Source: Giesbergeria anulus (lineage in GTDB: Bacteria; Pseudomonadota; Gammaproteobacteria; Burkholderiales; Burkholderiaceae_C). Taken from it: 64,000 nt of DNA. Of the stretch, positions 1 through 44,111 are shown piece after piece. The notes below the pieces were generated by a model. That model was not told the origin of the DNA and did no database searches. It saw only the letters and a list, made by a program, of their open reading frames with translations. Both the position numbers and the translations under genes were made by a program. The DNA is taken from the NCBI RefSeq assembly GCF_900111115.1, contig NZ_FOGD01000001.1, forward strand, positions 552,910 through 616,909. Reading direction: 5' to 3'. The stretch's first letter is position 1; each line of letters begins with the position of its first letter.

Positions 1-1014
1 CAAGCCGTGCGCTTGCCCTTCATGCCCAACGATCCGCGCGTGGTGGACTCCACTGGCGCGCTGGCGCTGGCGGGCGTGCCCAAAAAGATGCTCATCGTCG
101 GCGGTGGCATCATTGGTTTGGAAATGGGCACCGTCTATTCCACACTGGGCGCACGCTTGGATGTGGTCGAGATGATGGATGGCCTGATGCAAGGTGCCGA
201 CCGCGATTTGGTCAAAATCTGGCAAAAGATGAACGCCAAGCGCTTTGACAACATCCTGCTCAAAACCAAAACCGTCGGTGCCGAAGCCACCCCCGAAGGC
301 ATCAAGGTGCAGTTTGAAGGCTTGGATGGCACCAAATCCGAAGGCGTGTACGACCTCGTGTTGCAAGCCGTGGGCCGTACGCCCAACGGTAAAAAGCTGG
401 CTGCCGACAAGGCCGGAGTAGCGGTGACGGATCGCGGCTTTATTGACGTCGATATCCAGATGCGCACCAATGTGCCGCACATTTTTGCCATTGGCGATAT
501 CGTCGGCCAGCCCATGTTGGCGCACAAGGCCGTGCATGAAGCCCATGTGGCGGCGGAAGTCATCGCCGGAGAATTGCAAGGCAACAAGGAACTGGCCGCC
601 AGCGCCTTCAATGCCCGCGTGATCCCTAGCGTGGCCTACACCGACCCCGAAGTGGCTTGGGTCGGACTGACCGAAGACCAAGCCAAAGCGCAAGGCATCA
701 AGGTGAAAAAGGGCTTGTTCCCTTGGACAGCCTCGGGCCGCGCTATTGCCAATGGTCGCGACGAAGGCGTGACCAAGCTGCTGTTTGATGATTCTCCCGA
801 GGCCCACGGCCACGGTAAAATCTTGGGCGGCGGCATGGTCGGCACCCATGCGGGTGACATGATCGGCGAGATTGCCTTGGCGATTGAAATGGGCGCGGAT
901 GCCGTCGATATCGGCAAGACCATCCACCCACACCCCACGCTGGGCGAAAGCATTGGCATGGCGGCAGAAGTGGCGCACGGGTCTTGCACGGATTTGCCGC
1001 CGAGCAAGAAGTAA
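1..1014 (+). CDS. lpdA: Dihydrolipoyl dehydrogenase, C-terminal part (5' end off window)
   Basis: This is the E3 flavoprotein that reoxidises lipoyl groups of 2-oxoacid dehydrogenase complexes with NAD+. The reading frame is open from base 1, so the FAD-binding N-terminus and the redox CxxxxC disulfide lie upstream of the window. Visible parts are the NAD-binding Rossmann motif GGGIIGLEMG, the second FAD contact FAIGDIV, and the dimer-interface active-site motif HPHPTLGE (His and Glu of the HxxxxE pair). The protein ends PSKK at a TAA. A strong hairpin follows, so it is the last gene of its operon, presumably after the 2-oxoglutarate or pyruvate dehydrogenase genes. A degraded duplicate of its 3' end lies about 4.7 kb downstream. 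Family assignment is secure. Confidence 0.93.
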   Translation, partial: QAVRLPFMPNDPRVVDSTGALALAGVPKKMLIVGGGIIGLEMGTVYSTLGARLDVVEMMDGLMQGADRDLVKIWQKMNAKRFDNILLKTKTVGAEATPEGIKVQFEGLDGTKSEGVYDLVLQAVGRTPNGKKLAADKAGVAVTDRGFIDVDIQMRTNVPHIFAIGDIVGQPMLAHKAVHEAHVAAEVIAGELQGNKELAASAFNARVIPSVAYTDPEVAWVGLTEDQAKAQGIKVKKGLFPWTASGRAIANGRDEGVTKLLFDDSPEAHGHGKILGGGMVGTHAGDMIGEIALAIEMGADAVDIGKTIHPHPTLGESIGMAAEVAHGSCTDLPPSKK

Positions 1015-1034: not shown

Positions 1035-1067
1035 AAAAAGCCCGAACTGGCAACGATTCGGGCTTTT
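1035..1067 (+). terminator. Rho-independent terminator of lpdA
   Basis: Inverted repeat AAAAGCCCGAA / TTCGGGCTTTT with a ten-base loop, ending in a T-run, 21 bases after the lpdA stop. It is A-rich on the other side and could also stop the convergent minus-strand gene. Confidence 0.85.
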
Positions 1068-1082
1068 CTGCTGGTGAACCAG

Positions 1083-4000
1083 TCACTGCCTTTTCGCTGC
1101 TTCGTCGAGCCATTCGTCCATACCATTAACGCCAAGGGCAAGAAGTTTGTCTTGAACTGAAATAACACGCTGAATCATTGCCCCATCGTCTGACTCTTCT
1201 AGCTCTTCTGCGTGGGCAAAAAGATGGGTTAGGAGTTGGGTTAGGTTGTTTTCATAGTCGTAAAGATAAGGTCTCGTCCGCTCTACGAAGTTCAGATAAA
1301 TCTCTGTAGCTGCCAGCGCTTCTTGTGGCGCATATTGTGAAGTGGCATTAAGCCAAGCATCGAAGCCATAAATATCGCAACGATTAGATTTAGCATCTAT
1401 CTCTAGCAGCTCAAAGCATCGTTTTAGAGTATCTTCGGGAATGACTGTCAATGGCTCTATATGGCGTAATAGCTTTTTGAATTGGCATGAAACAGTCACG
1501 GCATGAGGGTTATCGGTGGACATGGCTGCTACGAATGCTGCAAGACAATAATTTCGGTGATGTAGGTAATTATCTGAATGACTCCAAACAATTGCAGCCC
1601 CCCGCCAAGCTTCAGCATTATTAATATCCCTGAGCTGATGAAGCAGCTCGTTAATATCTAATTTTCCGCTTAGCGTCGCAAGCGCAGCAATACGACCCCA
1701 TACTTCCAAGTCTTTGCCGCTACCAGTAGTGGCCAACTGCGCAAGCCATGCTTTGACTATCTCAAAATTTTGATAATATGCAAAATAGAGGCAACGCTCG
1801 GCTATCGCCCAGAGTCCTGGGGCAGTTTTTTGCATGGTAAGGTCAAACAATCGCCAACCTAATTCAGGAGCCATACTCTGTAAATAGGGCAAGCGCCGCA
1901 ACATGACTGCCCGAACAGCGGGGTGTGCATCGTTTGAAAAACTGCATAGAGCGACATCCAGAATTTCAGGAAACGGCGCATTTTTTTCCAAAAAATTAAT
2001 GGCGAGAACCATTAAAGCATCTGCAGCCTTTCCTTTTGCCATGTTGATGCCGATAGTTAATAAGTCAGTAGAGTTATCTGAAATAGGGCTTTGTTCAGAA
2101 AAATCTAAGAATTTATTGACCAAGTGCACCACGCGTTCTGCCATTTTGGCTTCTTGTATCACATGCGAACAGGCTTCTAAGGCTTTGGCTGCTTCTCGAC
2201 TGTGATGCCAGTGTTCTGGGTAATTCTCCAAGATATTTAGTGTATCTCGAACCAATTGGGCTGCATCGGCTTCTTCGACAGGCACCCAATTCCCATTAGG
2301 CTGTAAATTTCCGTGGCGAGTAGCAAGGTAGGTTGCTACCCCATCTATGATGTCATCACGAAATGTTTTTGGAATTTTTTCCCAGTGGTGCAATAAAATT
2401 GCAATGAATCGACTTGGGTGACGGGAAGTGGCTTCTTGAAGTTGAGCGCCAACCTCTCTCTCTCCACCAATCAAAAAATCATCAAATGAATTTTTTTGGT
2501 GCCCATCGTAGTGACTAACTAATAAAAGTACGGCTGAATCACTGCAATTTAAGAAAACTTCAAAAGAAAACGGGGGTGAAACTATTCCGCCACGAGAGCA
2601 AATATTGGCCTGCCTCACAAATGGCCACACCCACTGCTCGACCTTATTAAGGATTGCTTGATTTGCCAAAGAGCGCTGATGACACGAAATCGGTAGAATT
2701 AATTGGGCTTGCTGGCACAATTTCCAAGCAACATTTCCTGTATCATTAACTTCTTCCGAATATAGGTTCAAAATTTTCATTTGAATTGCATCTTGGGTGG
2801 CAGAATCCAATTCTATGAAAGCAGTTTTGATCAGCACTCCTAGCTCAAATGATAAATCTGATTTAAGCAAATCTACATCGCACAACATATGGCCAATCAC
2901 ATCCAGATTCGTGACCGACGCTACTATGCAGGCTTGGACAGAAAAATACCGCAAGGCTCCCTCGGCATTGAAACACAGTCGTTGACGGTTCAGTTGCCAC
3001 CACTCGGAATTGATATTAGCATGGTGAACAACAGCTCCCTCAATAGCGTCCATCAAAATGCGTACGCTATCCACGTGCCTGAGGTCAGTTTGGCTGTGAA
3101 CATCTTCATAAGATGTTTCACGTAGAAAGCCACTCCAATAGCTTCGATCTTCACCGTATTGTGATGATTTGATTTGACTCCATTTTTCTAAGGTATCCAC
3201 TGCCAAATTGAGAAAAGATATAGAATCCTGCATGCGATATTTTAAAAAATGGTCATTTTCATCACCAAATTCATGTGGCTCACAATGCAATTTATTATTG
3301 AAATTGTACCTAATTACATCTTCATCACTGATTTCATATGCAATATACCTCCACAGTAGCACATCGTCCAGCCCCCCAGCAGTGACACAACGTGCCAAAA
3401 CTCTCCCGAGAAAACTGTGCTCTCCTCTTGGCATATTCAGCAATGTTTTTAACAGAGGAGATAGCAGGCCTGCGTGAATCTCATCCATGTTTGAGATGGC
3501 AATAGTCAATTGCTCACCCAAGTGCGTCTGATCAATCCAATCTGTAGCCAGCACTTCCGTCCAGAAGCCAATTACCCCCGCCGCATCATCGTTTTGCCAA
3601 ACCGAGATGCGATGAACGTGCCTTTTCATGCCCTCACTATCCTGTTGTTGTTTCAGCATTGGCACCAAATACTTCATCCAAAAGTGGTGCCACTCCAGCC
3701 GAACAGCTTGGGCGTAAATAACCTGAAAAACTTCTGGGTATTTGTCTTGTAAATCGCGAATTAGGGGCCAGTCCTCATCCTGAGGTATTTGCTCGGCGAA
3801 GCATTCCGCCACTAAGCGACGGATGTGAAATGCATGTTGATTGGTGAGTACGGTACGTAGTTGGCTGCGAAATGTTTTTCTGTCCCCAGTAGCCAATTGG
3901 GCCACGAAGCTGCGGATGCTGGGGCGCACAAAAGGTACAGGTGGCAAGCCCTGAATGAATGCATGCAGTGTCTTCCCCTGCCGTAGGGCGTCGCTGATGA

Positions 4001-5660
4001 CCAAAACATCCAGCAAGGTTTGGTGTCCAAATGTTATTTTTCCATCTTGGGTTTTTTGCAATATCTTGTGACTGAGCAGCGAACGTCGGATCACATCAGA
4101 AGTTGTCAACCGTTGCGGTGGTACTGACAGGCTGCGCAACTTCAGCATTTCAGTGGCAACGGCCTCGATGGCCTGCATAGCAGCACTGCCCAGTGTGTCA
4201 TCAGCTTGAACAATGGTGTCCAGATATTTTTGGGCTAATGCCTGACTGGTCACTACATTGAAGCTTCCGCCTTGGCGGGCCAGTTCTACGTACAAAACCA
4301 ATTCACGTGGATTTTTAATTAGTTGCCGGGTGGTAGTATCCATGCCGGATATATCTATGCCTTGTCTAGTCAGCAGAGGTGCAATATCTGTTTCCCAGTT
4401 CAACGGTTGGCATTTGAATTCGTTGCTCCACTTTCGTTGAGCGATACTTCTTTCATATTGGCGGTCAAAGTCGCGGCAGGCGGTGATGACCGTGATATTG
4501 GACAGCCTCAGTAGGCGATTCATTTGCGCTAGAAAATAATCCAGCACCTTGTGTTCGCGGGCGATGGAGAGCACATCCAGCGAGTCAATGACCACCACCA
4601 CATGGACTGTTTCGGCCATACGTGCCGCACGTTCTACCCAGTCTTGCGGCAGCCCTTGTGCCTGGCGGTCTTGCGCGGTATCCAAATCCGCAAATTCGCG
4701 AGATTGGATAAAGATGGGAAACCGATCTGACCGAGACTTGGTTTGCTGCTCAAGTGCTTCTTGCAAGGCAAGCATCACGCATGTTTTGCCAGAGCCAGGC
4801 TGGCCGGTGAGCAAAATCGAAGAAGGTTTGGTTTCAATAGCGGTCAGGATCTCAGCCACCAGCGGAATTGACATGGTTTCGCCAGCGATGTCTCTGCACC
4901 AATCTCTGCCAATGGATGAGGTGCTTTCAAATGAGGAGCGAACTTCCACCATATTCATAGGCGGAGCCAGCACAGAACCTGCCGCATGAAGAATGGATTT
5001 CAGATCAGCTTTGGTCAGTCGGTGTTGTATAGCTACGTCTTGTCCATTTTGGCTGTCAGCACGCATACCGAGAAGGTCAAGGCGCGTCCAAAGGGCATTG
5101 AAAGCAGCATCAGGACTGCTTACCAATCGACGCAGGCGTTCGCGCAACAATCTTTCCATATGATCCAGCTCTGGACTGGGTTCAAACGTGGTACGACGCA
5201 TGAAGTCGTAGGTTGAAAGTGTTGGGATGTGATGCGCAATCTGGGTTTTCAGTTGGGTATCTGTCGTCGCAGTCGCCCTTCCCAAGTTAGCTTGGTAGCT
5301 GGCCTCGTCGGGATATGTGGTGCTGTACTCCCGCAAAGTTGCCAATTCACCGAAGGGACTGCGGGAGTAGAAACGTACGGATGCCATCGGGTCGTTGGCA
5401 AGCAATTGACCCGCTTTTTTAAGCTCGTCAGCAAGATCGGTTACTGACCATGAGTGGTGCAATTTTTGGTTTTTTTTGCATTGGCAGCAAATTTTGGAGC
5501 CATCTGTTTTACCTATCACCATGTCATCAACTGGCAGTGTTGAGGCGTCCACTTCAAGCCATTCATAGGTTGGATCATCAAGAACGAAAAGTGCCCAATC
5601 AAAGGCCACCAACGTCTGATAGCCATCACCTCGGTTGGATTGAATACCTGCTTTGCTCAT
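1083..5660 (-). CDS. Large Cap4-like nuclease / STAND NTPase (Avs-like, candidate antiphage sensor-effector)
   Basis: A 1525-residue protein, not assigned to a named gene. I chose the ATG at 5660 because AGGAAG lies seven bases upstream and the protein then begins MSKAGIQ. Residues 1-85 look like a DUF4297/Cap4-type PD-(D/E)xK endonuclease: a GDGYQ segment, E36/D38, D45-D46, then Q60-C-K62 followed by HSWSVTDL. Residues 280-500 form a P-loop NTPase of STAND/NACHT type: Walker A GQPGSGKT (286-293), Walker B VVVVIDSLD (354-362) and a sensor-like TACRDFD. About 900 further residues are mostly helical and HEAT/TPR-like, the usual target-sensing part. This nuclease-NTPase-helical order matches AVAST (Avs) proteins, which recognise phage proteins and then cut DNA. 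Antiphage function is inferred. The gene stands alone, is A+T-rich compared with its neighbours, and is flanked by an lpdA scar, which suggests acquisition by transfer. Confidence 0.72.
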   Translation of the reverse strand: MSKAGIQSNRGDGYQTLVAFDWALFVLDDPTYEWLEVDASTLPVDDMVIGKTDGSKICCQCKKNQKLHHSWSVTDLADELKKAGQLLANDPMASVRFYSRSPFGELATLREYSTTYPDEASYQANLGRATATTDTQLKTQIAHHIPTLSTYDFMRRTTFEPSPELDHMERLLRERLRRLVSSPDAAFNALWTRLDLLGMRADSQNGQDVAIQHRLTKADLKSILHAAGSVLAPPMNMVEVRSSFESTSSIGRDWCRDIAGETMSIPLVAEILTAIETKPSSILLTGQPGSGKTCVMLALQEALEQQTKSRSDRFPIFIQSREFADLDTAQDRQAQGLPQDWVERAARMAETVHVVVVIDSLDVLSIAREHKVLDYFLAQMNRLLRLSNITVITACRDFDRQYERSIAQRKWSNEFKCQPLNWETDIAPLLTRQGIDISGMDTTTRQLIKNPRELVLYVELARQGGSFNVVTSQALAQKYLDTIVQADDTLGSAAMQAIEAVATEMLKLRSLSVPPQRLTTSDVIRRSLLSHKILQKTQDGKITFGHQTLLDVLVISDALRQGKTLHAFIQGLPPVPFVRPSIRSFVAQLATGDRKTFRSQLRTVLTNQHAFHIRRLVAECFAEQIPQDEDWPLIRDLQDKYPEVFQVIYAQAVRLEWHHFWMKYLVPMLKQQQDSEGMKRHVHRISVWQNDDAAGVIGFWTEVLATDWIDQTHLGEQLTIAISNMDEIHAGLLSPLLKTLLNMPRGEHSFLGRVLARCVTAGGLDDVLLWRYIAYEISDEDVIRYNFNNKLHCEPHEFGDENDHFLKYRMQDSISFLNLAVDTLEKWSQIKSSQYGEDRSYWSGFLRETSYEDVHSQTDLRHVDSVRILMDAIEGAVVHHANINSEWWQLNRQRLCFNAEGALRYFSVQACIVASVTNLDVIGHMLCDVDLLKSDLSFELGVLIKTAFIELDSATQDAIQMKILNLYSEEVNDTGNVAWKLCQQAQLILPISCHQRSLANQAILNKVEQWVWPFVRQANICSRGGIVSPPFSFEVFLNCSDSAVLLLVSHYDGHQKNSFDDFLIGGEREVGAQLQEATSRHPSRFIAILLHHWEKIPKTFRDDIIDGVATYLATRHGNLQPNGNWVPVEEADAAQLVRDTLNILENYPEHWHHSREAAKALEACSHVIQEAKMAERVVHLVNKFLDFSEQSPISDNSTDLLTIGINMAKGKAADALMVLAINFLEKNAPFPEILDVALCSFSNDAHPAVRAVMLRRLPYLQSMAPELGWRLFDLTMQKTAPGLWAIAERCLYFAYYQNFEIVKAWLAQLATTGSGKDLEVWGRIAALATLSGKLDINELLHQLRDINNAEAWRGAAIVWSHSDNYLHHRNYCLAAFVAAMSTDNPHAVTVSCQFKKLLRHIEPLTVIPEDTLKRCFELLEIDAKSNRCDIYGFDAWLNATSQYAPQEALAATEIYLNFVERTRPYLYDYENNLTQLLTHLFAHAEELEESDDGAMIQRVISVQDKLLALGVNGMDEWLDEAAKRQ

Positions 5661-5727
5661 GAAGGGCTTCCTATTGCGCGTTGTTTTTCTTGCAACTCTG
5701 CCGGATGGCGGGGGATTTCCCATTGTC

Positions 5728-5931
5728 GCTGCCGACAAGACTATGAGTGCTGTCACCGATCAAGGACTCATCAACGTCGATATCCAGATGCACACCAACG
5801 TGCCGCACATCTTTGCTATTGGCAATATCGTCGGTGAGCCCATGCTGACACGCAAATCGGTGCATAAACCCCATGTAGTAGCGGAGGTAGCACATAGCAT
5901 CTACACCGATTTTTCACAACAGAAAGAGTGA
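5728..5931 (+). pseudogene. Decayed duplicate of the lpdA 3' end
   Basis: The frame reads AADKTMSAVTDQG... and aligns with lpdA residues around AADKAGVAVTDRG. Over 47 aligned residues, 35 are identical, including NVPHIFAIG. The homology then jumps from the VAEV segment straight to the last residues of lpdA (AHSIYTDF versus AHGSCTDL), so an internal stretch of about 130 codons is missing. It has no proper start and lies only about 70 bases from the start of the large NTPase gene on the opposite strand. It looks like the displaced 3' end left when that gene was inserted next to lpdA, or a remnant from a related genome. Confidence 0.88.
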
Positions 5932-6023: not shown

Positions 6024-6920
6024 TTAGTCCTTCTTGCCCACCATCTGGATGATGCTAGAAAAGTCCAGCCCCCCCTGCCCAGCAATGCTATGCATGGCAT
6101 ACAGGTTGCGCGCCAAGCCACCCAGCGGGGTCGATGCCTTAACGGCGGTGGCATTTTCTTGCGACAGGCCCAAATCTTTCAGCATCAAATCGGTGCCAAA
6201 GCCACCAGCATAGCCTTTGCTGGCTGGTGCGTTTTCATGCACACCGGGGCAGGGGTTGTATTTTTCCAGCGCCCAGTTGCCGCCAGAGCTGCGGCGCATG
6301 ATTTCCGAGAGCACCTTGGGATCGAGCCCATTGGCGACGCCCAAAGCGATGGCCTCAGAGGTGCCGATCATCAAAATGCCCAGCAGCATGTTGTTGCAGA
6401 TTTTGGCAGTTTGGCCTGCTCCCACAGCACCAGCGTGGAAAATATTAGCCCCCATTTTTTCCAGCAGTGGACGGGCGCGTTCCAGCACAGCAGCATCGCC
6501 ACCAACCATAAAAGTCAGCGTACCAGCAATGGCACCGCCGGTGCCACCCGACACCGGGGCATCAATAAACTGCACGCCTTGGGCCTGCGCGGCGTCGGCC
6601 ACTTTACGTGCGCTGGCGGCAGCGATAGTGGAGCAGTCAATCACCAGTGCGCCCGCTGGCAGCAGGGGCAACACGCCAGCCTGCGTGCCGTTGCCCAAGA
6701 ACAGCGCTTCTACGTGGGCGCTGGCGGGCAACATGCTAATCACCACTTCAGCGCCTTGCACAGCAGCAGCGGCATCGGTGGCAATGGCTACGCCTTCGGC
6801 GGCCAGTTTCTCGCAGGCGCTGGTGGACAGATCAAACGCTTGGACGGTGTGGCCGGCCTTGTGCAGGTTCAGGGCCATTGGGCCGCCCATATTGCCTAGG
6901 CCGATAAATGCGATATTCAT
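6024..6920 (-). CDS. mmsB: 3-hydroxyisobutyrate dehydrogenase
   Basis: A 298-residue NAD-dependent enzyme that oxidises 3-hydroxyisobutyrate to methylmalonate semialdehyde in valine breakdown. The N-terminal Rossmann loop GLGNMG is at residues 7-12, the substrate-binding DAPVSGG at 120-126, and the catalytic lysine K173 sits in GAGQTAKICNN. Length is normal for the family. It is the last gene of a three-gene minus-strand cluster with the acyl-CoA dehydrogenase (36 bases upstream) and mmsA, whose product takes the semialdehyde onward, so the pathway context supports the precise assignment. Confidence 0.92.
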   Translation of the reverse strand: MNIAFIGLGNMGGPMALNLHKAGHTVQAFDLSTSACEKLAAEGVAIATDAAAAVQGAEVVISMLPASAHVEALFLGNGTQAGVLPLLPAGALVIDCSTIAAASARKVADAAQAQGVQFIDAPVSGGTGGAIAGTLTFMVGGDAAVLERARPLLEKMGANIFHAGAVGAGQTAKICNNMLLGILMIGTSEAIALGVANGLDPKVLSEIMRRSSGGNWALEKYNPCPGVHENAPASKGYAGGFGTDLMLKDLGLSQENATAVKASTPLGGLARNLYAMHSIAGQGGLDFSSIIQMVGKKD

Positions 6921-6956
6921 AGTGTTGTCTCCGGTGTGGTGTTGTTGGGGGTGGCT

Positions 6957-8129
6957 TTAGCGGATGGCGTCCGGGGCGTCGGAGTCGAGCATACGGCGCG
7001 CAATGATGACGCGCATGATCTCGTTGGTGCCTTCTAAAATCTGGTGTACGCGGGCATCGCGCAGCAGGCGCTCTAAGGGGTATTCGCGGATATAGCCATA
7101 GCCGCCATGCAGTTGCAGTGCTTCGTTGCAAACAGTAAAGCCCGCATCGGTGGCAAAACGCTTGGCCATCGCGCAGTAGGTGCTGGCATCAGGGGCACCG
7201 GCATCGAGTTTGCTGGCAGCCAGACGCACCATTTGCCGCGCTGCCACCAGTTCGGTAGCCATATCAGCCAACTTGAACTGCAAGGCTTGGAAGCTGGCCA
7301 AGGTTTTGCCAAACTGCTTGCGCTCTTGCATATAGCTTTGCGCTTGTGTCAATGCGCCTTGGGCGGCCCCCACGGAGCAGGTGGCAATGTTGATGCGCCC
7401 GCCATCCAAGCCCTTCATGGCAATTTTGAAGCCCTCGCCCTCGTGGCCGAGCAGGTGGTCATGTGGGATGCACACGTTGTCAAAACTGATGGTGCGCGTG
7501 GGCTGGCTGTTCCAGCCCATTTTTTCTTCTTTTTTGCCATAGCTGATGCCGGGGGTATCGGCAGGCACAACAAAAGCAGAAATGCCTTTAGCACCATCTT
7601 CGGTGCTGCCGGTGCGCGCCATCAAGATCAGCACTTTGGTACTGCCAGCACCAGAGATAAACGCCTTGGCCCCGTTGATAACATAGCCATCATCGGTGCG
7701 CTGGGCACGGGTTTTGATAGAACCGGCATCAGAACCGGCACCGGGTTCGGTCAGGCAGTAACTGGCGAGCTTTTGGCCGGTGGTGAGCGCTTCGCCCCAC
7801 GTGGCGCGCACGGCATCAGTGGCCCAAGTGCCCAGCATCCACGTAGCCATATTGTGGATGGTGATAAAGGCAGTGGTGGAGGGGTCTACCGCCGCCAGCT
7901 CTTCAAACACCATCGTGGCATCGAGCCGGGGCAAAGCCAAACCGCCCGCGTTCTCAGGGGTATACAGGCCGCAAAAACCCAGCTCGCCCGCTTTGGCAAT
8001 GGCCTCACGCGGAAAGATGCCTTCAGCATCCCAGTGCGCGGCATGGGGGGCCAATTCGGCTTGGGCAAAATCGCGCGCCGTCTGGGCAAAAGCGCGTTGT
8101 TCTTCGGTCAGCTCAAAATCCATAGACAA
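6957..8129 (-). CDS. Acyl-CoA dehydrogenase, probably isobutyryl-CoA dehydrogenase
   Basis: A 390-residue FAD enzyme of the short-chain acyl-CoA dehydrogenase family. It shows the FAD-binding stretch YCLTEPGAGSDAGS, the LHGGYGY segment, and the ILEGTNEIMR motif whose first Glu (about residue 366) is the expected catalytic base that removes the alpha proton. Its position between mmsA and mmsB points to isobutyryl-CoA as substrate (the ACAD8 type step of valine catabolism). The sequence alone cannot exclude butyryl- or 2-methylbutyryl-CoA. No enoyl-CoA hydratase or 3-hydroxyisobutyryl-CoA hydrolase is present in the cluster; these would have to be encoded elsewhere. Confidence 0.88.
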   Translation of the reverse strand: MSMDFELTEEQRAFAQTARDFAQAELAPHAAHWDAEGIFPREAIAKAGELGFCGLYTPENAGGLALPRLDATMVFEELAAVDPSTTAFITIHNMATWMLGTWATDAVRATWGEALTTGQKLASYCLTEPGAGSDAGSIKTRAQRTDDGYVINGAKAFISGAGSTKVLILMARTGSTEDGAKGISAFVVPADTPGISYGKKEEKMGWNSQPTRTISFDNVCIPHDHLLGHEGEGFKIAMKGLDGGRINIATCSVGAAQGALTQAQSYMQERKQFGKTLASFQALQFKLADMATELVAARQMVRLAASKLDAGAPDASTYCAMAKRFATDAGFTVCNEALQLHGGYGYIREYPLERLLRDARVHQILEGTNEIMRVIIARRMLDSDAPDAIR

Positions 8130-8206
8130 AAGTCTCCAGCAGGGTTCTGGGAGGTTGCAGGATTATTGGGGCAACGGCAGACCCGCTGCACGCTGCCCCG
8201 TGGGCC

Positions 8207-9706
8207 TTATTTCAGGCTGATGGTGGTGTTAACACCTTGGTTGGTGGTGCTATCGTCAAACCAGCGCGCCGTGACGGTCTTGGTTTGGGTATAGAACATC
8301 ACCACTTGCTTGCCGTAGGGGCCGAGATCCCCCAGCTTAGAAGCACGCGAACCGGTGAACGAGAAGATTGGTACTGGCACGGGGATTGGCACGTTGATAC
8401 CCACTTGGCCGACATCAATTTCTTCTTGGAACTTGCGTGCTGCTGCGCCCGACTGGGTGAAGATGGCGGTGCCGTTGCCGTTGGGGTTGGCGTTGATAAA
8501 TTCGATGGCTTCGTCCAAGTCTTTGGCAGCCACCAAGCTGAGCACGGGGCCAAAAATTTCTTGGTCATACACGGCCATACCGGGTTGCACGCCGGAGAAA
8601 ATGGTCGGGCCGACAAAGTTACCGTCTTCAAAACCGGGCACTACAGGCTTGCGGCCATCGAGTTCGAGGGTGGCACCATCGGCCACACCGCGCTCAATCA
8701 GGCCCTCAATGCGACTCAGGGCAGCACGGGAGATCACTGGGCCGACATCGGTGCCCTTTTCTGTACCACCACTGACCTTGAGGGTCTGGGCCTTGGCTAC
8801 CAGTTCCGCTGTCCATTGCTGGCTCTCGCCCACCAAAATCACCACAGGCAGAGCCATGCAGCGCTGACCAGCGGCACCGAAGGCGGCACCGGCAATCGCA
8901 TTGAGCGTTTGCTCTTTGTTGGCATCGGGCAGCACAATGGCGTGGTTCTTAGCACCCATCATGCACTGGGCGCGCTTGCCCGCCAAAGTGGCGCGGTTGT
9001 AAACGTGTGTGCCCACCTTGGTAGAACCCACAAACGACACCGCCTTGATGTCTTTGTGGTCGCAGATGGCGTTAACGGCATCTTCACCACCGTGAATGAC
9101 GTTGAGCACACCGGCAGGAATGCCCGCTTCCAGCGCCAGCTCGACCAAGCGCATCGTCACCAGTGGGTCTTGCTCAGACGGCTTGAGCACGAAGGTATTG
9201 CCAGTAGCAATCGCCATCGGGAACATCCACAGCGGAATCATGGCTGGGAAGTTGAACGGAGTGATACCAGCGCACACGCCCAAGGGTTGCAGAATGGTGT
9301 AAGTATCGACACCACCGGCCACATTGTTAGCCAGCTCGCCCAGTTGCAGATTGCCGATGCTGGCGGCGTGCTCTACCACCTCAAGGCCACGGAACACATC
9401 GCCTTCGGCGTCGGGCAGGGTTTTTCCTTGTTCTGAGGTGAGCAGGGCGGCCAGTTCACCCATGTTTTCGCGGATGAGCTGCTGCAACTTCAAGAAGATG
9501 CGGGCGCGGGTGCCGATGGGGGTTTTCTTCCAAGTCTTGAAGGCTTCCTTGGCTGCGGCCACGGCGGCGTCAATTTCTGCGGGCGTGGCAAAGGGCACGC
9601 GAGCCAGCACCTGCTGCGTGGCGGGATTGACGACATCGCGCCATTGGGTGGTCTGGGATTCGACGAATTGGCCGTTAATCAGCAGTTTGACGGAAGGTAC
9701 AGTCAT
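8207..9706 (-). CDS. mmsA: Methylmalonate-semialdehyde dehydrogenase (CoA-acylating)
   Basis: A 499-residue aldehyde dehydrogenase that converts methylmalonate semialdehyde, NAD+ and CoA to propionyl-CoA. The catalytic cysteine is C283 in GQRCMAL, and the oxyanion Asn is N152 in FNFP. The usual ALDH general-base Glu near residue 250 is absent (the sequence there is QCMMGAKNH), which is the hallmark of the CoA-acylating MMSDH family. It is first in the minus-strand cluster, with a GGAGACACC ribosome site. It is separated by 143 bases from a divergent LysR gene that probably controls it. The propionyl-CoA it makes links functionally to prpE-type metabolism further along. Confidence 0.94.
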
Positions 9707-9813
9707 CAGTGGTGTCTCCTAGAAATGGGGCTGTGCCGGGACTATGCGCCCGAAGCACTGCATCGTAGCTGTGCGGTTTTATTCAGACAATAGGTAATTT
9801 CGCGCAATTGATC

Positions 9814-9825
9814 TGCAAAAATGCA
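9814..9825. promoter_or_regulatory. Possible LysR operator between mmsA and the LysR gene
   Basis: Inverted repeat TGCA-AAAA-TGCA in the divergent intergenic region, compatible with the loose T-N11-A pattern bound by LysR proteins. Only position and symmetry support it. Confidence 0.3.
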
Positions 9826-9849
9826 CATCTTTTGCTTGGCTGTCATGCG

Positions 9850-10749
9850 ATGGACTGGAATCATTTACGCTACTTTTTACAACTAGCCCGTGCGGGCACC
9901 TTGGTGGGGGCAGCGCGGCATTTGGGCGTAGACCACACCACGGTGGCGCGGCATATTCAGGCGCTAGAAAAGCAGATGGGCGCTGCCTTGTTTGCCCGCG
10001 AGGCCGGAGGCCACCGTCTGACGGAATTGGGCCGCCAGTTGCTACCCGCTGTGGAGGCGATGGAATCGGCGGTGATGGGGGTCGAGCGCGTGTTGCCAGC
10101 GGCGGGCAGTGGCCCCGCCGGGCTGGTGCGTGTAGGGGCTACCGAAGGTTTTGGCACCTTGATTTTGGCACCCCAACTGGCCCGGCTAACGCAGCGCCAT
10201 CCGCAGCTGTCGATTGATTTGCTAGCGCTGCCGCGTATGGTGCATTTGTCACGCCGCGAGGCCGATATCGTGATTTCGCTAGAGCGGCCCACGCGCGGCT
10301 CGGTCATCGTCAGTAAATTGGCCGACTACACCTTGCACCTGTACGGCCAGCGCGAATACTTGGCCCGCCGCCCACTGGTCACGCAGCGCGAGGATTTGCG
10401 CCACCATGCTTTTGTCAGCTATGTCGATGATCTGCTCTTTACCAAAGAACTGCAATTTCTCGATGCCCTGCACCAACCTGAACGCTTTGCCTTTCGCAGC
10501 ACCAGCATCACGGCACAACACGAGGCCGTGCGCGCCGGGGCCGGACTGGCGGTGCTACCCGCTTTTCTGGCCGACCGCGACCCGCTGTTGATGCGCGTGC
10601 TCCCAGAAGAAGCCCGCTTCACCCGCGTCTTTTGGATGAGTATGCCTGCCGAGTCCAAACACCTGGCCCGGATGCAAGCGGTGTGGCGGTTTTTGAAAGA
10701 AGTGGTGCGTGAGCAAGGAGACCGGTTGGTATCCACAAAGGCAACGTGA
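9850..10749 (+). CDS. LysR-family transcriptional regulator
   Basis: A 299-residue regulator. The start at 9850 (MDWNHLRYFLQ) is chosen because it matches the family's N-terminus; an upstream alternative start would add 14 non-conserved residues. The winged helix-turn-helix occupies about residues 1-60 (TLVGAARHLGVDHTTVARHIQALE), followed by the effector-binding domain. It is divergent from mmsA, the common arrangement for a LysR protein controlling its neighbour. It is therefore a candidate regulator of valine degradation, responding to an unknown pathway intermediate. Confidence 0.85.
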   Translation: MDWNHLRYFLQLARAGTLVGAARHLGVDHTTVARHIQALEKQMGAALFAREAGGHRLTELGRQLLPAVEAMESAVMGVERVLPAAGSGPAGLVRVGATEGFGTLILAPQLARLTQRHPQLSIDLLALPRMVHLSRREADIVISLERPTRGSVIVSKLADYTLHLYGQREYLARRPLVTQREDLRHHAFVSYVDDLLFTKELQFLDALHQPERFAFRSTSITAQHEAVRAGAGLAVLPAFLADRDPLLMRVLPEEARFTRVFWMSMPAESKHLARMQAVWRFLKEVVREQGDRLVSTKAT

Positions 10750-10896
10750 GGGTGCATAAGAAAACCGGGGGTAGATTTCAAAGGATCAAGGCTTTCTTCT
10801 TGTGCTGACGCACAAAACAGCCCAAAAGACCCTTCGGCACCGCCTTGGATGTTCTGTCTTGGCCCGCACTTCGTTAAGATGGTAGTTGATCGTCGC

Positions 10897-10914
10897 TGAC
10901 ATGGTCTGATGTCA
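10897..10914. promoter_or_regulatory. Operator-like palindrome upstream of the ElaB-type gene
   Basis: Perfect inverted repeat TGACAT-GGTCTG-ATGTCA, 38 bases before the start of the DUF883 gene. The rest of the 10,750-10,951 gap shows nothing recognisable. A regulator binding site is possible but unproven. Confidence 0.25.
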
Positions 10915-10951
10915 TGGTAGCGAGCTTCTTCCCTCTCACGAAAGGCTGATA

Positions 10952-11263
10952 ATGACCCATTCTGTCTCTGAAACCATCTCTAGCACCCAAACCGAACTGG
11001 AAAAACTGGTGGCTGACTTGCGTGGCCTGATTTCCAGCAAAGACCTCGACAACGTGCCTGAAATCAAGATCCTGCGCCAGCGTCTGGACGATGGCATGCA
11101 CAACGTGCGTGACGCCGCCGTCCATGCCGCCCAAGAAGCGGCTCGCCAAGCCAAAGATGCCGCCCGTGCTGCCGACCGTTACGCCCACGATGAACCTTGG
11201 CGCGTGGCCGGTGCTGCACTGGCCGTGGGTGCCGTGGTCGGCTTTTTGCTCTCGCGCCGCTAA
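10952..11263 (+). CDS. DUF883 / ElaB-YqjD family membrane-anchored protein
   Basis: A 103-residue protein with a long, charged, Ala-rich amphipathic helix (residues about 10-80) and one C-terminal membrane anchor (PWRVAGAALAVGAVVGFLLSRR-type ending). That is the signature of the ElaB/YqjD/YgaM family of inner-membrane, ribosome-associated stress proteins. A GAAAGG ribosome site precedes the ATG. It begins a three-gene unit with YqjE- and YqjK-like genes, the same trio as yqjD-yqjE-yqjK in enterobacteria. The function is known only in outline (stationary phase, ribosome tethering). Confidence 0.85.
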   Translation: MTHSVSETISSTQTELEKLVADLRGLISSKDLDNVPEIKILRQRLDDGMHNVRDAAVHAAQEAARQAKDAARAADRYAHDEPWRVAGAALAVGAVVGFLLSRR

Positions 11264-11326
11264 GCCCTTGTTGGCTTTGCAAACTGTGCCTAGTGCAAGC
11301 TACCCCAGACTGTGCCGGTACGCGAC

Positions 11327-11722
11327 ATGAATTTGATCGCTTTACTCGGCCTTGATGCTTGGCTGGCGCGCTGGCGCACCTTGATCGCCGAAGGTGCCAA
11401 CGCCGCTGAAGACCGCCTCGAACTGGCCCGGCTGGAGTGGTTGGAGCAAAAGCGCCGCCTGCGCCAAGTGCTGTTGCTAGGGCTGGTGGTCGTGGCCGTC
11501 ACGGTGGTAGCGCTGCTGTTGCTATCGTTGGCCTTGCTAGTGCAGTTTTGGGATACCCCACAGCGCAGTTTGGTCGCTTGGCTGCTGGCCGCAGGCTGGT
11601 GTTTGGTCTGGCTGGGCACGGTGGTCGGTTTCTTCTCGGCGCTGCGTGGCATGGGCCCCGCCTTTGCCCTAACCCGGCAAGAATTGCGCAAAGACTGGCA
11701 CGCGGTCAAGGAGCATCTGTGA
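11327..11722 (+). CDS. yqjE: YqjE / phage-holin-family (DUF1469) inner-membrane protein
   Basis: 131 residues starting MNLIALLGL. An N-terminal amphipathic region is followed by two strong membrane spans (around VLLLGLVVVAVTVVALLLLS and SLVAWLLAAGWCLVWLGTVV). The family is often labelled putative Actinobacteriophage holin, but here it is an ordinary chromosomal gene and not a prophage trace. The start at 11327 is preferred over the in-frame GTG at 11312. Its TGA overlaps the GTG start of the next gene, showing translational coupling. Confidence 0.8.
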   Translation: MNLIALLGLDAWLARWRTLIAEGANAAEDRLELARLEWLEQKRRLRQVLLLGLVVVAVTVVALLLLSLALLVQFWDTPQRSLVAWLLAAGWCLVWLGTVVGFFSALRGMGPAFALTRQELRKDWHAVKEHL

Positions 11723-12030
11723 ACCAACCTCCTACCCCCGCCATCATGCCAGTGCCCACCACAGCGCAACAGTTGGTGCTAAACCGCATTGCCATGCAAC
11801 GAGGCCGCTTGGCCTTGCTATGTGCAGAGCGGCAACAGCGCCAAGCCACTGCCGGCACTGGTTGGGCCGCGTTGCTTTCTACGCCCCTGCTATACCAAGC
11901 CGTGTACGTGGCGCGCCAACACCCACTGGCCGTGACTGCCTTGGTGGCTGGGGCGGTAGCTGCTGGCCCCAAGCGCTTGGCCCGTTGGGCCGGGGTGTTG
12001 CTGCCGTTGCTGATTCGGCTACGTGCCTAA
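11719..12030 (+). CDS. YqjK-like protein
   Basis: 103 residues from a GTG start that overlaps the upstream stop codon (GTGA). It is rich in Ala, Arg and Gln, with a segment of moderate hydrophobicity near the C-terminus. Position after yqjD- and yqjE-like genes is the main reason for the name. The longer open frame from 11437 is only an overlap with yqjE and is not used. Confidence 0.65.
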   Translation: MNQPPTPAIMPVPTTAQQLVLNRIAMQRGRLALLCAERQQRQATAGTGWAALLSTPLLYQAVYVARQHPLAVTALVAGAVAAGPKRLARWAGVLLPLLIRLRA

Positions 12031-12045
12031 ACATTACCAGAAAAA

Positions 12046-12065
12046 AAGGGGGCTGTGGCCCCCTT
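12046..12065. terminator. Bidirectional terminator between the yqj trio and pyrD
   Basis: Perfect eight-base stem AAGGGGGC / GCCCCCTT with a TGTG loop, with an A-run on the left and T-rich sequence on the right. It serves both convergent units. Confidence 0.85.
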
Positions 12066-12071
12066 AGTGTT

Positions 12072-13142
12072 TTAGCGCATCGCTTTTTTGATGGCACGTG
12101 CGGCACTGCTGGGCAGCCCCGGCCCAGCATAAATCAAACCGGTATAAATTTGCACCACATCGGCCCCCGCACGGATTTTGCTCACCGCATCTTCGGCGCT
12201 CATAATACCGCCGACACCAATGATGGGAAATTGCCGCCCCAAAGCTGCACGCAATTGTGCAATCACCCGGTTGCTGGCCTCTAACACTGGCGCACCGCTC
12301 AAACCTCCAGTTTCTTGGGCGTGGGGCAAGCCCTGCACGGCATCGCGGCTGATGGTAGTGTTGGTGGCAATAACACCATCCATGCCGTGGCGTTGTAAAG
12401 TGGCGGCAATCACCGACACTTGGGCGGCATCCAAATCTGGGGCAATCTTGACAAAGATAGGGACGCGCCGCGCCTTACCACTGGGGCCGGGCTGGCGGGC
12501 CAACACCTCACGGCGCTCGGCAATGGCTCCCAACAGGGCATCCAAAGCCTCATCGCTTTGCAAGCTGCGCAGGTTTTGTGTGTTGGGCGAGCTGATATTC
12601 ACCGTCACATAGTCGGCATGGGGATACACGCCGTCCAGACAAGTCAGGTAGTCGCGGGTGGCCTCTTCAATCGGTGTGGTGGCATTCTTGCCAATGTTCA
12701 GACCCAGCAGCATCGGGTGGCGGCGTTTTTGCTGGCGAAACTTGGCCTGCTGCACATTGCGAATAAAGGCATCCAAGCCATCGTTGTTAAAACCAAGCCG
12801 GTTAATCAGTGCTTGGGCCTTGGGCAGGCGGAACATGCGCGGCTTGGGGTTACCAGGCTGGGGTTTGGGCGTCACGGTGCCCACCTCGACAAAGCCAAAA
12901 CCCATCGCCCCCAAGGCATCAATGCAGCGGGCGTTTTTGTCCAGCCCAGCGGCCATACCGACACGGTTAGGAAAGGTGAGGCCCGCCAATTCAATTGGAT
13001 CATCCACGGTGTCATGGCACCAAGCCCATTGCAGGGGGGTACCTTGACCACGGGTCAGCATATCCATCGTCAGATCGTGGGCAGCTTCGGCATCCATGCC
13101 AAACAGAAACGGGCGGGTAAGGGCGTAAGGAATCAAGGACAT
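12072..13142 (-). CDS. pyrD: Dihydroorotate dehydrogenase (quinone), class 2
   Basis: A 356-residue membrane-associated FMN enzyme that oxidises dihydroorotate to orotate with quinone in pyrimidine synthesis. It has an N-terminal helical extension ([19 protein letters not shown]), the FMN and substrate segments [12 protein letters not shown] and [17 protein letters not shown], and the catalytic serine loop VNISSPNT that marks class 2 rather than class 1 enzymes (which use Cys). Length fits the class. It is monocistronic here, ending in a shared terminator. Confidence 0.95.
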
Positions 13143-29649: not shown

Positions 29650-29708
29650 TGCTAACGAAACAAGGTAAGTGGCAGCTGGAAGCTGTCCGCTTGAGCACCA
29701 TATTAGAG
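29650..29708 (-). repeat. attC site 1 (59 bp)
   Basis: Minus-strand R'' CTCTAAT and R' GTTAGCA. The core pairs AAGCGGACAGCT with AGCTGCCACTT around TTCC, with an extrahelical base. Its 26-base core is identical to that of attC site 5. R'' is the least conserved of the six. Confidence 0.85.
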
Positions 29709-30173
29709 CTGCCCACGTTGCCCTCGCGAGTTGAAGACAGGAGCGTGCTTTTTGACAATCTTTTCCTCAACCTCTTTTCGCCCGATAGCCACTGGAGTAA
29801 GAGCTACTCGGATGTTTGACTCCATGTATTCTGTAAGCCGTAACTCGACATCAAACGGGAATTTTGTTTTGGCGTTGGCCTCCGAAACTCCGACGACACC
29901 AGAAAACTGACGCTTTCCCAGCGATCTACGAAATGAATGATTCACAGTGCGAAAAATATCTTTCATCCGCGCCTTGAGAGAGCCAGTTTCACCGACGTAA
30001 ATTACTACCTCACGTTCAAAGATGCAGTAGACACCCGGTTTGTCTGGAAACGATGCTGTACGTATCAGCGGAACTGAATTAATTGGATTGACTAAATTTT
30101 CTACAAGTTGCTCGATGTAACGAGACAATTTGTCGGCATCTTGCTTTTCAAGCAGCGAAGAAAAAATGTTCAT
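29703..30173 (-). CDS. GIY-YIG domain protein (integron cassette 1)
   Basis: 156 residues. The start at 30173 (MNIFSSLLEK) is chosen because the longer frame (GTG at 30203) would begin inside attC site 2. It has the GIY-YIG nuclease fold signature, GVYCIFE (G47-Y49) with IYVGETGSLKARM (Y59-G61, R69). This family cuts DNA in repair, restriction and homing enzymes. A later EVELRL-like helix carries a Glu that could bind the metal. The stop is just before R'' of attC1. Biological role unknown; a cassette-borne nuclease may be defensive. Confidence 0.75.
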   Translation of the reverse strand: MNIFSSLLEKQDADKLSRYIEQLVENLVNPINSVPLIRTASFPDKPGVYCIFEREVVIYVGETGSLKARMKDIFRTVNHSFRRSLGKRQFSGVVGVSEANAKTKFPFDVELRLTEYMESNIRVALTPVAIGRKEVEEKIVKKHAPVFNSRGQRGQL

Positions 30174-30184
30174 TGGATAGAGGG

Positions 30185-30251
30185 CTTTAATGTTTGAATT
30201 CACCGGCCTGCGCGGCTTTTAGCGCAGGTCTGATGGAATGATGGGTTGGGC
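30185..30251 (-). repeat. attC site 2 (67 bp)
   Basis: Minus-strand R'' GCCCAAC, inner stem CCTGCGC / GCGCAGG, R' ATTAAAG. R'' complements the GTTGGGC R' of attC3, confirming a single cassette between them. Confidence 0.85.
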
Positions 30252-30290
30252 CTTGATGACTCACAGGGGACGGCGTTACCGGGATACCAA

Positions 30291-30662
30291 CTAGACAGCG
30301 TAGTGAGCAAAGGCCCGAACGACTTTATTGTCCGTGCCGAAGTGAAAGACCTCGGCGGCAAGGCGACCCCGAGCCCCTTTGTAGTAGAGGGTAATGGAAT
30401 TGACGCCAACAAGAACTGAAAGAAGTTCAAATTGGAGGTCTGGAATTAGCCCCAGTGCCTTTTTCCAATACGCGCCAACGGCAGTTTTGTCTCGGAGTGT
30501 ACCGGATGATTCACCGGTGACTTGAATAATCACAGGCGACGACATTTCGAAATCGTCAGCGTAGTGCGACAGAATTCTTTCTAGGTCATGAGCATTCCAC
30601 GAGGCGATCCAGTCCGCCGCAAAATTTTCAACAAATGCTTTATCCATCTTCAATTGCTCCAT
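30291..30662 (-). CDS. NTF2/SnoaL-like protein (integron cassette 2)
   Basis: 123 residues from ATG 30662 (an alternative at 30647 has GGAG nine bases upstream). The pattern FAADWIASWNAHDLERILSHYADDFEM, then GLIPDLQFELLSVLVG and a GRLAAEVFHFG strand is that of the alpha+beta cone of the NTF2/SnoaL superfamily: small ligand-binding or isomerase-like proteins. The catalytic pocket cannot be predicted. Such genes are frequent in environmental integron cassettes. Confidence 0.75.
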   Translation of the reverse strand: MEQLKMDKAFVENFAADWIASWNAHDLERILSHYADDFEMSSPVIIQVTGESSGTLRDKTAVGAYWKKALGLIPDLQFELLSVLVGVNSITLYYKGARGRLAAEVFHFGTDNKVVRAFAHYAV

Positions 30663-30686
30663 TGGTGAGTGGTTGTCGGATGAGAG

Positions 30687-30780
30687 GCCCAACGCCCGCG
30701 GTAAGCCGCACCGGAGTGCGAAGCACGGAGGGTACCAACAAGCGGAGCTTGTTGGTGTCGGCTTGACCAAACAGTTAGGC
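30687..30780 (-). repeat. attC site 3 (94 bp)
   Basis: Minus-strand R'' GCCTAAC and R' GTTGGGC, with a long imperfect palindrome that includes ACCAACAAGC / GCTTGTTGGT. R'' matches the TTAGGC start of the next cassette. Confidence 0.9.
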
Positions 30781-30816
30781 CTGTAGCCAAGTGAGAATTT
30801 TGCTGGCAGAACATAA

Positions 30817-31461
30817 CTAGATGTGCAGTTTTTCTGCGCAGGTAATAGCGAAGACTGTATGACGCCCAAAGAACTGCATTCCCCAAATACCACTGCCATC
30901 TTCGCCAACATGGCCTCTGTAGAGAAATGTTCCCTTGTTCAGGGGGCGCAGTGGCAAACTGTGCATCACCTCCATAATGCTTTTGGCCAGTGCAGCATCT
31001 AGGCTATCCCCTGACAAGACGGTGGTCTTTAGCTCTGCATTTTGGGCTTCACCTGTCTCCATCCAGTGTAGCGCCTTGACGATCCTTGTGATGACGCGCT
31101 CATACTTCGTGCGATCAAATGTAATTGCTACAGCAGGTTCCAATATTGCACTATTGAGCTTTGCATAAACATTCCTCTTGGTTTCGAAAATGTTATTTGC
31201 GATTTTTTGATTGCCACTGATGGTTCTTGCTAGTGAATTAATAACCCTGTCCTGCGCAATTTGATGCTCGCCTGTTGTGATGCCAATAAATACTTTGAAC
31301 TCTTCATCGTCAGTTGATGCGCCGTTGTTGCATTCCTTGCATGCCGGAACTGTATTGAGGTTGATATCGTTGTCGCGTGGCTTTGGATACAAGCTTTGCG
31401 GAGGAATGTGGTCGCTCGTAACCGCTGGGTTAACGCCGCAAATTGCGCACAGTTTTTTCAT
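30817..31461 (-). CDS. HNH endonuclease family protein (integron cassette 3)
   Basis: 214 residues. The N-terminus is a zinc-bound HNH unit: CAICG (CxxC), SDHIPPQSLYP with the catalytic His, LNTVPACKECNNGAS with the second CxxC and Asn. The remainder is of unknown fold and is acidic and helical. HNH proteins are nickases, restriction or homing enzymes. The leader is only 28 bases from the cassette start, a usual layout for cassette genes that rely on an upstream promoter. A+T-rich compared with the core genome. Confidence 0.82.
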   Translation of the reverse strand: MKKLCAICGVNPAVTSDHIPPQSLYPKPRDNDINLNTVPACKECNNGASTDDEEFKVFIGITTGEHQIAQDRVINSLARTISGNQKIANNIFETKRNVYAKLNSAILEPAVAITFDRTKYERVITRIVKALHWMETGEAQNAELKTTVLSGDSLDAALAKSIMEVMHSLPLRPLNKGTFLYRGHVGEDGSGIWGMQFFGRHTVFAITCAEKLHI

Positions 31462-31483
31462 TGTCCGTCTTTGAGGTGAAGTG

Positions 31484-31571
31484 GCCTAACGTAGAGATCA
31501 CCAGACAAACCCACAAACGACCGCTAAAGGCGGGCAATTGTGGGTTTTTCTGGTGCATCGACCTGTTATAT
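31484..31571 (-). repeat. attC site 4 (88 bp)
   Basis: Minus-strand R'' ATATAAC, long stem CACCAG...ACCCACAA / TTGTGGGT...CTGGTG around TTTA, and R' GTTAGGC. This is the best-formed site of the array. Confidence 0.93.
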
Positions 31572-31598
31572 TATGCTTTTGACAAAGTGTGAACTGAT

Positions 31599-32477: not shown

Positions 32478-32515
32478 GTGAGCACAGGTTGGGAAATAAA
32501 ATGATAGCGTATTTT

Positions 32516-32574
32516 ATATAACGAACTAAGGTAAGCGGCAGCTGGAAGCTGTCCGCTTGAGCGACTTGTTAGGC
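32516..32574 (-). repeat. attC site 5 (59 bp)
   Basis: Minus-strand R'' GCCTAAC (overlapping the TAA stop of the upstream gene) and R' GTTATAT. The core stem is the same as in attC1, differing at one base in the arm. Confidence 0.9.
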
Positions 32575-33435: not shown

Positions 33436-33472
33436 ATGCGGTGATATCGAAGATGCTCGCGACTTCAATGCG

Positions 33473-43925: not shown

Positions 43926-44000
43926 GGGTGATTAGCTCAGCGGTAGAGCACTGCCTTCACACGGCAGGGGTCACATGTTCGATCCATGTATCACCCACCA
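43926..44000 (+). tRNA. tRNA-Val (anticodon CAC), copy 1
   Basis: GGGTGAT acceptor pairs with ATCACCC, followed by encoded ACCA. The anticodon stem CTGCC / GGCAG holds loop TTCACAC, anticodon CAC (valine, GUG). T-loop GTTCGATCC. 75 bases with CCA. Confidence 0.95.
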
Positions 44001-44036
44001 CAATTTGCGGCTTTGGTTTTCCCGATCAAAGCCATT

Positions 44037-44111
44037 GGGTGATTAGCTCAGCGGTAGAGCACTGCCTTCACACGGCAGGGGTCACATGTTCGATCCATGT
44101 ATCACCCACCA
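44037..44111 (+). tRNA. tRNA-Val (anticodon CAC), copy 2
   Basis: Identical in all 75 bases to copy 1, which starts 111 bases upstream. The spacer is unrelated apart from the bases next to CCA. Probably one transcript processed into two tRNAs. Confidence 0.95.

Follow-up and report, generated by a model that had tools for sequence, protein, structure and literature searches.

In the window, the whole stretch of 64,000 nucleotides from Giesbergeria anulus analysed here, the minus strand from 5660 to 1083 holds a single intact frame of 1525 codons without internal stop, and the plus-strand reading of 1083-5660 is riddled with stops. The one 1525-residue protein and the coordinates of the original prediction were borne out by this uninterrupted minus-strand frame. 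The start residue is common to the window protein and its relatives, and a sequence like a ribosome-binding site precedes the ATG. The GC content of 1083..5660 is 0.467 versus 0.591 for 6024-13000, so that the gene looks acquired. A search of NCBIfam with the whole protein returned no model at its cut-off.

The convergent gene on the left we take, from its sequence, to be lpdA. On the right stands a broken lpdA copy, 78% identical at the nucleotide level over 5728-5888 (162 columns), whose frame closes with a stop after a C-terminal tail like that of lpdA. Homology to some congeneric lpdA copies extends to window position 1066, so the foreign segment seems to begin just past the hairpin that separates the convergent genes. 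The right flank, where eight frames were scanned, consists of metabolic and regulatory genes.

Table. Positions of the features in the window and at related loci.
Feature	Position	Strand	Basis
Nuclease-STAND-solenoid protein CDS, 1525 aa, stop codon included	1083..5660	-	open frame
Cap4/LmuA-type PD-(D/E)xK nuclease effector, residues about 9-200 (E36, D45/D46, Q60-x-K62)	5061..5636	-	motifs, fold, relatives' HMMs
STAND-type P-loop NTPase and C-terminal helical/winged-helix-like region, residues about 231-560	3981..4970	-	Pfam, fold, conservation
All-helical HEAT-like solenoid, putative sensor, residues 561-1525	1086..3980	-	predicted model, Foldseek
Ribosome-binding-site-like AGGAAG ahead of ATG at 5660	5667..5672	-	by eye
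lpdA, dihydrolipoamide dehydrogenase, cut by window edge; convergent neighbour, left border of insertion	1..1014	+	
Two-way terminator-like hairpin between convergent genes	1035..1067	.	by eye
lpdA copy, internally deleted and diverged; right border of insertion	5728..5931	+	
3-hydroxyisobutyrate-dehydrogenase-like gene, first metabolic neighbour beyond insertion	6024..6920	-	
Caspase-fused relatives	L033:9098-14620, L034:8873-14020, L037:9203-13966, L040:5289-8015		
G375 lpdA-side AbiL region	L078:3343-6985		
G390 lpdA 3'-half copies	L080:1792-2394, L081:9270-9872, L082:8304-8906		
Prophage relative, member between endolysin and Q-like antiterminator genes	L041:5851-18514		

Residues 1-570 were modelled with AlphaFold2 from a 35-row alignment of N-terminal halves (mean pLDDT 86.6). 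The model runs from a helix (13-28) through strands 32-37, 47-51 and 56-62 to a second helix (77-89) and a strand (93-99), with D46 next to strand 2 and Q60-x-K62 as the end of strand 3. In this predicted model the order of the first 100 residues is the arrangement of a PD-(D/E)xK core, the fold that had been expected at the N-terminus.

Conservation of the nuclease was followed in 31 aligned rows free of the caspase-like fusion described below (the window protein and 30 relatives), one of which has no N-terminus. D46 and K62 are kept in all 30 rows having the region, Q60 and D45 in 29 of 30 each, and position 36 is E in 26 rows and Q in four. Conservation of D46, the later Asp in VDD, slightly exceeds that of D45, which had been named at first. 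Members found later in two further genomes (G529 and G571) likewise keep VDD and QAKKNQ. The core fold with a D ... (E/Q)xK active site, as in Cap4 and LmuA, is present to judge from the predicted model and the conserved residues. A further conservation profile took in 21 of the 35 rows.

The PADLOC model of LmuA, a nuclease of the Cap4 type from Lamassu, matched 30 of the 35 N-terminal halves, and Pfam Cap4_nuclease matched four (both at E<=0.01). The window protein as a whole matched LmuA weakly (9.1e-5); LmuA was not listed for its 570-residue piece at E<=0.01, and Cap4_nuclease was absent among the Pfam matches listed for it. The nuclease assignment therefore rests on the relatives, the motif and the fold. 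By these three the Cap4-like nuclease that had been proposed stands, but the window protein's own HMM match is weak.

The NTPase landmarks are Walker A (286-293), Walker B (354-362), a conserved ACR-FD (394-399) and H546. K292, T293, D359, D362 and R396 are kept in 35 of 35 rows. All the motifs reported earlier (E36, D38, D45, Q60-x-K62, GQPGSGKT at 286-293 and VVVVIDSLD at 354-362) were found at the positions given for them. That they are chance motifs is rejected by the near-invariance of the nuclease and NTPase residues among the relatives. Pfam AAA scored above its cut-off for the NTPase region, and Pfam NACHT was borderline, with 25.9 for the whole protein against a cut-off of 26.7 and 27.7, just over, for residues 1-570.

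Foldseek comparison of residues 1-570 with solved structures placed Avs3 (8dgc, E 1.7e-14) and Avs4 (8dgf, 1.7e-13) on top. Among the best 50 rows these were followed by origin-recognition ATPases, Hachiman at rank 6 and, lower, NLRP1 and NOD2. The core is a STAND NTPase, as had been predicted. TM-scores to Avs3 and Avs4 were low (0.31, rmsd 18-20), so the likeness is one of domains and their order and not of a rigid whole. Such values are to be expected of domains that are placed differently, and would also fit a likeness confined to shared domains.

The remainder of the protein, residues about 560-1525, was predicted as all helix (mean pLDDT 84.7, pTM 0.55). The repeat region, first put at about 900 residues, is indeed helical, with no strands predicted, but its length is 965 residues. 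Its matches in the best 50 rows of Foldseek were karyopherins, CAND1 and other HEAT-repeat proteins, with E from 2.7e-6 to 2.9e-4 and low TM-scores, which limits the support to a HEAT-like solenoid. The best 50 rows held no Avs chain. PADLOC gave no match to the solenoids of 30 members at E<=0.04, with two stray ones at 0.04-0.05. Comparison of sensor profiles by hhalign covered Avs2, in the form of two Avs2-model proteins of genome G046, and found no relation (probability 0.2%, E 0.35). The recognition part, first described as unlike anything that could be named, is not wholly new, as the PDB has a full-length homologue, uninformatively named (see below).

Avs3 and Avs4 have an N-terminal nuclease, a central STAND NTPase and a long C-terminal repeat in one polypeptide. 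The window protein shows the same three-part build, and with it the Avs hallmark of an effector, a STAND NTPase and a C-terminal repeat sensor. Anatomy and fold matches thus sustain its comparison with AVAST proteins, while by profile it fell outside Avs1-5. In contrast to Avs3 and Avs4, its C-terminal part resembles HEAT/karyopherin solenoids, and PADLOC, run with the whole protein at E<=1, gave no Avs model among eight matching families. Avs2 also has this build in common with the window protein; its match to the NTPase by hhalign was weak (E 5.3e-4, probability 31%, 268 columns), the PADLOC Avs2 model matched one of the 35 N-terminal halves (1.9e-4; 25 of 29 families listed), and its sensor is unrelated by profile.

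These N-terminal matches, with the best fold matches of the first 570 residues among them, would agree with a strictly defined new Avs subtype: the protein would then belong to the Avs clade, and its C-terminal region would have arisen from the sensor of an Avs protein and would bind terminase or portal. We regard this as rather unlikely, given the unrelated Avs2 sensors, the 30 solenoids without a PADLOC match at E<=0.04 and the lack of any Avs chain among the best 50 fold matches of the solenoid. Membership of Avs1-5 by profile is rejected, as PADLOC gave the window protein no Avs model and its sensor is not related to that of the two Avs2 proteins. STAND NTPases in general share a tripartite build, and the nucleases of Avs1-4 cut phage and host genomes upon recognising terminase, portal or Ksap1, as described in PMC12931631. 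Our verdict is that the window protein is Avs-like in build, not a demonstrated member of Avs1-5, and has a separate sensor.

The nuclease class is also common to LmuA of Lamassu, Cap4 of CBASS and the window family. Lamassu LmuA works with an SMC-like LmuB encoded alongside, and Cap4 of CBASS carries a C-terminal SAVED ligand-binding domain and has a cyclase nearby. Neither an SMC-like LmuB nor a cyclase was found among the eight flanking frames scanned on the right side of the gene, and no SAVED domain was matched in the window protein by PADLOC or among the Pfam matches listed. Lamassu is rejected because the right-hand flanking frames scanned are metabolic and regulatory, with no SMC, and CBASS because there is no SAVED domain and no cyclase in the flanking frames scanned. 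The bNACHT proteins have a NACHT-like NTPase between effector and sensor, as in the window protein; they differ in that the window protein's Pfam NACHT score straddles the cut-off. The window protein is, besides, larger than typical bNACHT proteins.

A 1523-aa homologue is present in the PDB as 9n00, 9n01 and 9yix, labelled merely "AAA family ATPase". Residues 1-1521 of the window protein align with 1-1520 of the 9n00-type chain (1866.9 bits), with 59% identity over the first 300 residues. It is a member of the same family from end to end, yet a different protein. None of the three entries was in the best 50 Foldseek rows for residues 1-570; as so close a chain should rank first, the structure library (to 2026-04-08) presumably does not include them. 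We found no paper naming 9N00 or 9N01 as a whole word and, among the matches listed, none on 9YIX; nor did a search by topic give, among the matches listed, an experimental paper recognisable as dealing with this protein. We also searched the PDB for partner chains. A lambda terminase and a prophage terminase had no match, and none of the matches of the T7 portal (14 rows) or a T7 terminase piece (2 rows) was the 9n00/9n01/9yix chain. The solved structures indicate that the family is studied elsewhere and that others may already have its target, so a claim of novelty needs care.

We compared the lpdA region with that of congeneric genomes. In G375 the arrangement is again convergent: lpdA, 94.6% identical, comes first, next are two genes with a GC content of 0.44, and a partial lpdA comes last. 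These two genes are AbiLi (PADLOC 8.6e-94) and AbiLii (2.2e-26; Pfam RloB 1.3e-36). The lpdA-side position therefore holds an abortive-infection AbiL pair in one genome and the nuclease-STAND protein in another. The outer flanks differ, with a TPR gene beyond the partial lpdA in G375 versus the dehydrogenase gene in the window; in G375 the dehydrogenase gene lies on a different contig and has one more lpdA remnant after it. The remaining congeneric genomes examined did not show lpdA beside that dehydrogenase gene; lpdA had other neighbours there. It is suggestive, from two cases and not statistically, that the 3' side of lpdA is a hotspot for the exchange of defence genes.

The genome G390 has three copies of the lpdA 3' half, each beside a 534-codon frame; the frame that was scanned, at L081, is an IS91-type (Y2) transposase. 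Carriage of an lpdA piece by an IS91-type transposon is one possible source of the fragments. As a separate observation, G372 has a gene for a tyrosine integrase (L075:7000-7908) some 0.2 kb away from the lpdA end, and sequence near it resembles, by eye, a tmRNA 3' end.

The surroundings of the relatives vary. One member lies in a prophage (L041), where six of six flanking ORFs scanned match phage families, its neighbours being terminase, endolysin, a Q-like antiterminator, a DnaC-like loader, an O-like replication protein and a repressor. At L042 and L044, one of two flanking ORFs each matched a phage family. Eight neighbour ORFs of relatives were scanned singly against PADLOC. Two matched at 1e-8: one, a Drt4/Drt6-like reverse transcriptase, lies near L030 and the other, a type II methyltransferase, near L038. 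The remaining six gave no match. A set of 105 neighbour ORFs, searched at 1e-15 and with no control set, matched 87 PADLOC families (25 listed). These 105 were selected from 186 ORFs of >=110 aa lying no more than 3.5 kb away, which in turn were drawn from the 340 within 6 kb, with the near-duplicate locus L025 left out. The DndA and SspA matches among them are probably one ordinary class-V aminotransferase. Among the 340 ORFs within 6 kb, no neighbour family recurred in more than three of 37 loci, and a conserved two-gene system is rejected on this ground. Several recurrent neighbours are shared between near relatives or belong to cyanobacterial caspase clusters.

The relatives are rare and scattered over several phyla. 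A scan of one genome per species yielded 33 relatives from 127 pattern matches, and viral contigs yielded four from 34; these numbers are lower bounds, set by the reach of the pattern. Whole-genome search of the class found the family in four of 369 genomes, namely the window's own and three with partial or stop-bearing matches. In the phylum it was found in three of 398, which are the window's own, one with a long match and one with a match split over two contigs. Relatives were present in 5 of 72,556 plasmid records and in none of 50,697 phage records. The alignment was made without L020, L021 and L030, whose frames are broken, and the tree took in 33 of its 35 rows, as L032 and L040 are too short. 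It intermixes Pseudomonadota, Nitrospirota, Thermodesulfobacteriota and Ignavibacteriota, and groups the window protein with a Rhodoferax protein (98/98); some of its joins carry a flag because long branches may have joined there falsely. Of the 37 loci scanned, five (L018, L020, L021, L030 and L036) have a gene with internal frame breaks or stops, and a Nostoc copy is interrupted by an IS630 transposase gene.

These results bear on whether the protein is a NACHT/STAND regulator outside defence, for example a transcriptional regulator like MalT. The Pfam NACHT and AAA matches are generic and would suit such a protein. However, the catalytic residues of its nuclease are conserved, the 25 of 26 Pfam matches listed include no DNA-binding output domain, the distribution is patchy (the two counts above each include the window's own genome), one relative is in a prophage, and an AbiL pair occupies the lpdA-side position. 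Nor are its nearest relatives non-defence NACHT proteins, because the top fold matches are Avs3 and Avs4 and the context is defence-like, although the genes adjoining it in the window are metabolic. We therefore consider a non-defence regulator very improbable.

Among the cyanobacterial members, the N-terminal effector varies and the switch and sensor are kept. Three members (L035, L036 and L039) and the L005 piece have the ordinary nuclease. L033 and L040 have an N-terminal caspase-like domain followed by a full-length nuclease in which D46 is changed to N. In L034 the caspase-like domain precedes a nuclease that is shortened, has N at both 45 and 46 and lacks K62, and in L037 it is joined almost straight to the STAND domain. 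The caspase label comes from the L007 homologue, which is annotated "caspase family protein", and from the motifs FFAGHG and LDCC, which all four share; the almost identical L006/L034 gene has the annotation "pentapeptide repeat-containing". The plasmid copies adjoin genes annotated as caspase and trypsin-like.

Compared with three nuclease-only relatives, L033 and L040 show 63-65% identity in the nuclease region and 75-79% in the NTPase region. Among these three relatives, nuclease and NTPase regions are both 69-81% identical. Such divergence would be as expected if the fused nuclease has left full constraint. The tree needs three changes for three fused rows (L040 being too short for it), and its starred branches force at least two; shuffled labels do likewise (mean 2.9; 500 of 500 as low), so forms with and without the fusion are mingled in the tree. 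Either exchange on several occasions or gain followed by loss would be compatible with this. Replacement of the nuclease looks stepwise, from the D46N fusion through the eroded fusion to the caspase-like domain alone. The series is the clearest evidence that the NTPase and solenoid form a conserved sensing unit and the N-terminus an exchangeable effector. Caspase effectors in bacterial immunity, including those with NLR-type proteins, are already known; PMC12799240 lists them and reports that a partner nuclease can be activated by caspases and trypsin-like proteases, a pairing which differs from the cyanobacterial fusions here.

In our view the window protein is probably a single-gene, Avs-like abortive-infection sensor that cuts DNA upon sensing a phage molecule. 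This reading is supported by the anatomy in three parts, the conservation of catalytic and nucleotide-binding residues, the likeness in fold to Avs3 and Avs4, the defence-type location and the exchange of effectors with switch and sensor retained; the role in defence we infer from anatomy and location. At rest, the NTPase core and solenoid would probably keep the protein inactive. When a phage infects, the HEAT-like solenoid would bind a molecule made by the phage, a conserved protein being the likeliest candidate. Binding of ATP by the STAND core may then drive oligomerisation, as it does in STAND proteins in general. The oligomer would gather the N-terminal PD-(D/E)xK domains and cut double-stranded DNA, which would stop phage and host together, by analogy with the Cap4/LmuA/Avs nuclease class.

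Rather than a direct receptor, the protein could be a guard or anti-plasmid device, with a solenoid that senses a host molecule or a non-phage invader such as a plasmid, conjugation or the damage done by another system. STAND immune proteins can sense indirectly, since DnaJ mediates phage sensing by bNACHT25 according to the title of PMC12169576, and the sensor has no relation to two Avs2 proteins, so that direct binding of terminase or portal cannot be transferred to it. Nothing points to a host partner, however, no neighbour gene being found in more than three of the 37 loci, and we judge such a device to be quite improbable.

A broader proposal is offered tentatively, as a possibility that we would not yet favour. 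The family would be a separate class of nuclease-STAND receptors in which the HEAT solenoid, similar to karyopherins, detects a signal unlike terminase and portal, coming from the phage or from host damage. Its sensor and switch would form a portable cassette that passes from genome to genome at a hotspot with broken lpdA, and its cyanobacterial members would have swapped nuclease for caspase by way of fusions whose nuclease loses D46 and erodes. If true, this would be a case of effector replacement preserved step by step in bacterial NLR-like proteins. If the signal of the sensor differs from terminase and portal, the set of phage patterns read by bacterial NLR-like proteins would grow. How a pattern-recognition receptor swaps its killing mechanism with the sensor kept becomes testable with the cyanobacterial intermediates, because they offer three effector states of one sensor (nuclease; caspase with D46N nuclease; caspase alone) for comparison under a single trigger. 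The results also suggest that the lpdA site is a practical place to seek more defence genes in the genus.

Elsewhere in the window, a second low-GC islet lies just ahead of a uvrB-like gene (29703-33468, minus strand). Judged by eye, the frame at 29703-30203 resembles a GIY-YIG nuclease, that at 30817-31461 an HNH protein and that at 31599-32477 a caspase/CHAT-like protein. Two tandem tRNA-Val(cac) genes with equal Rfam scores are located at 43926-44111.
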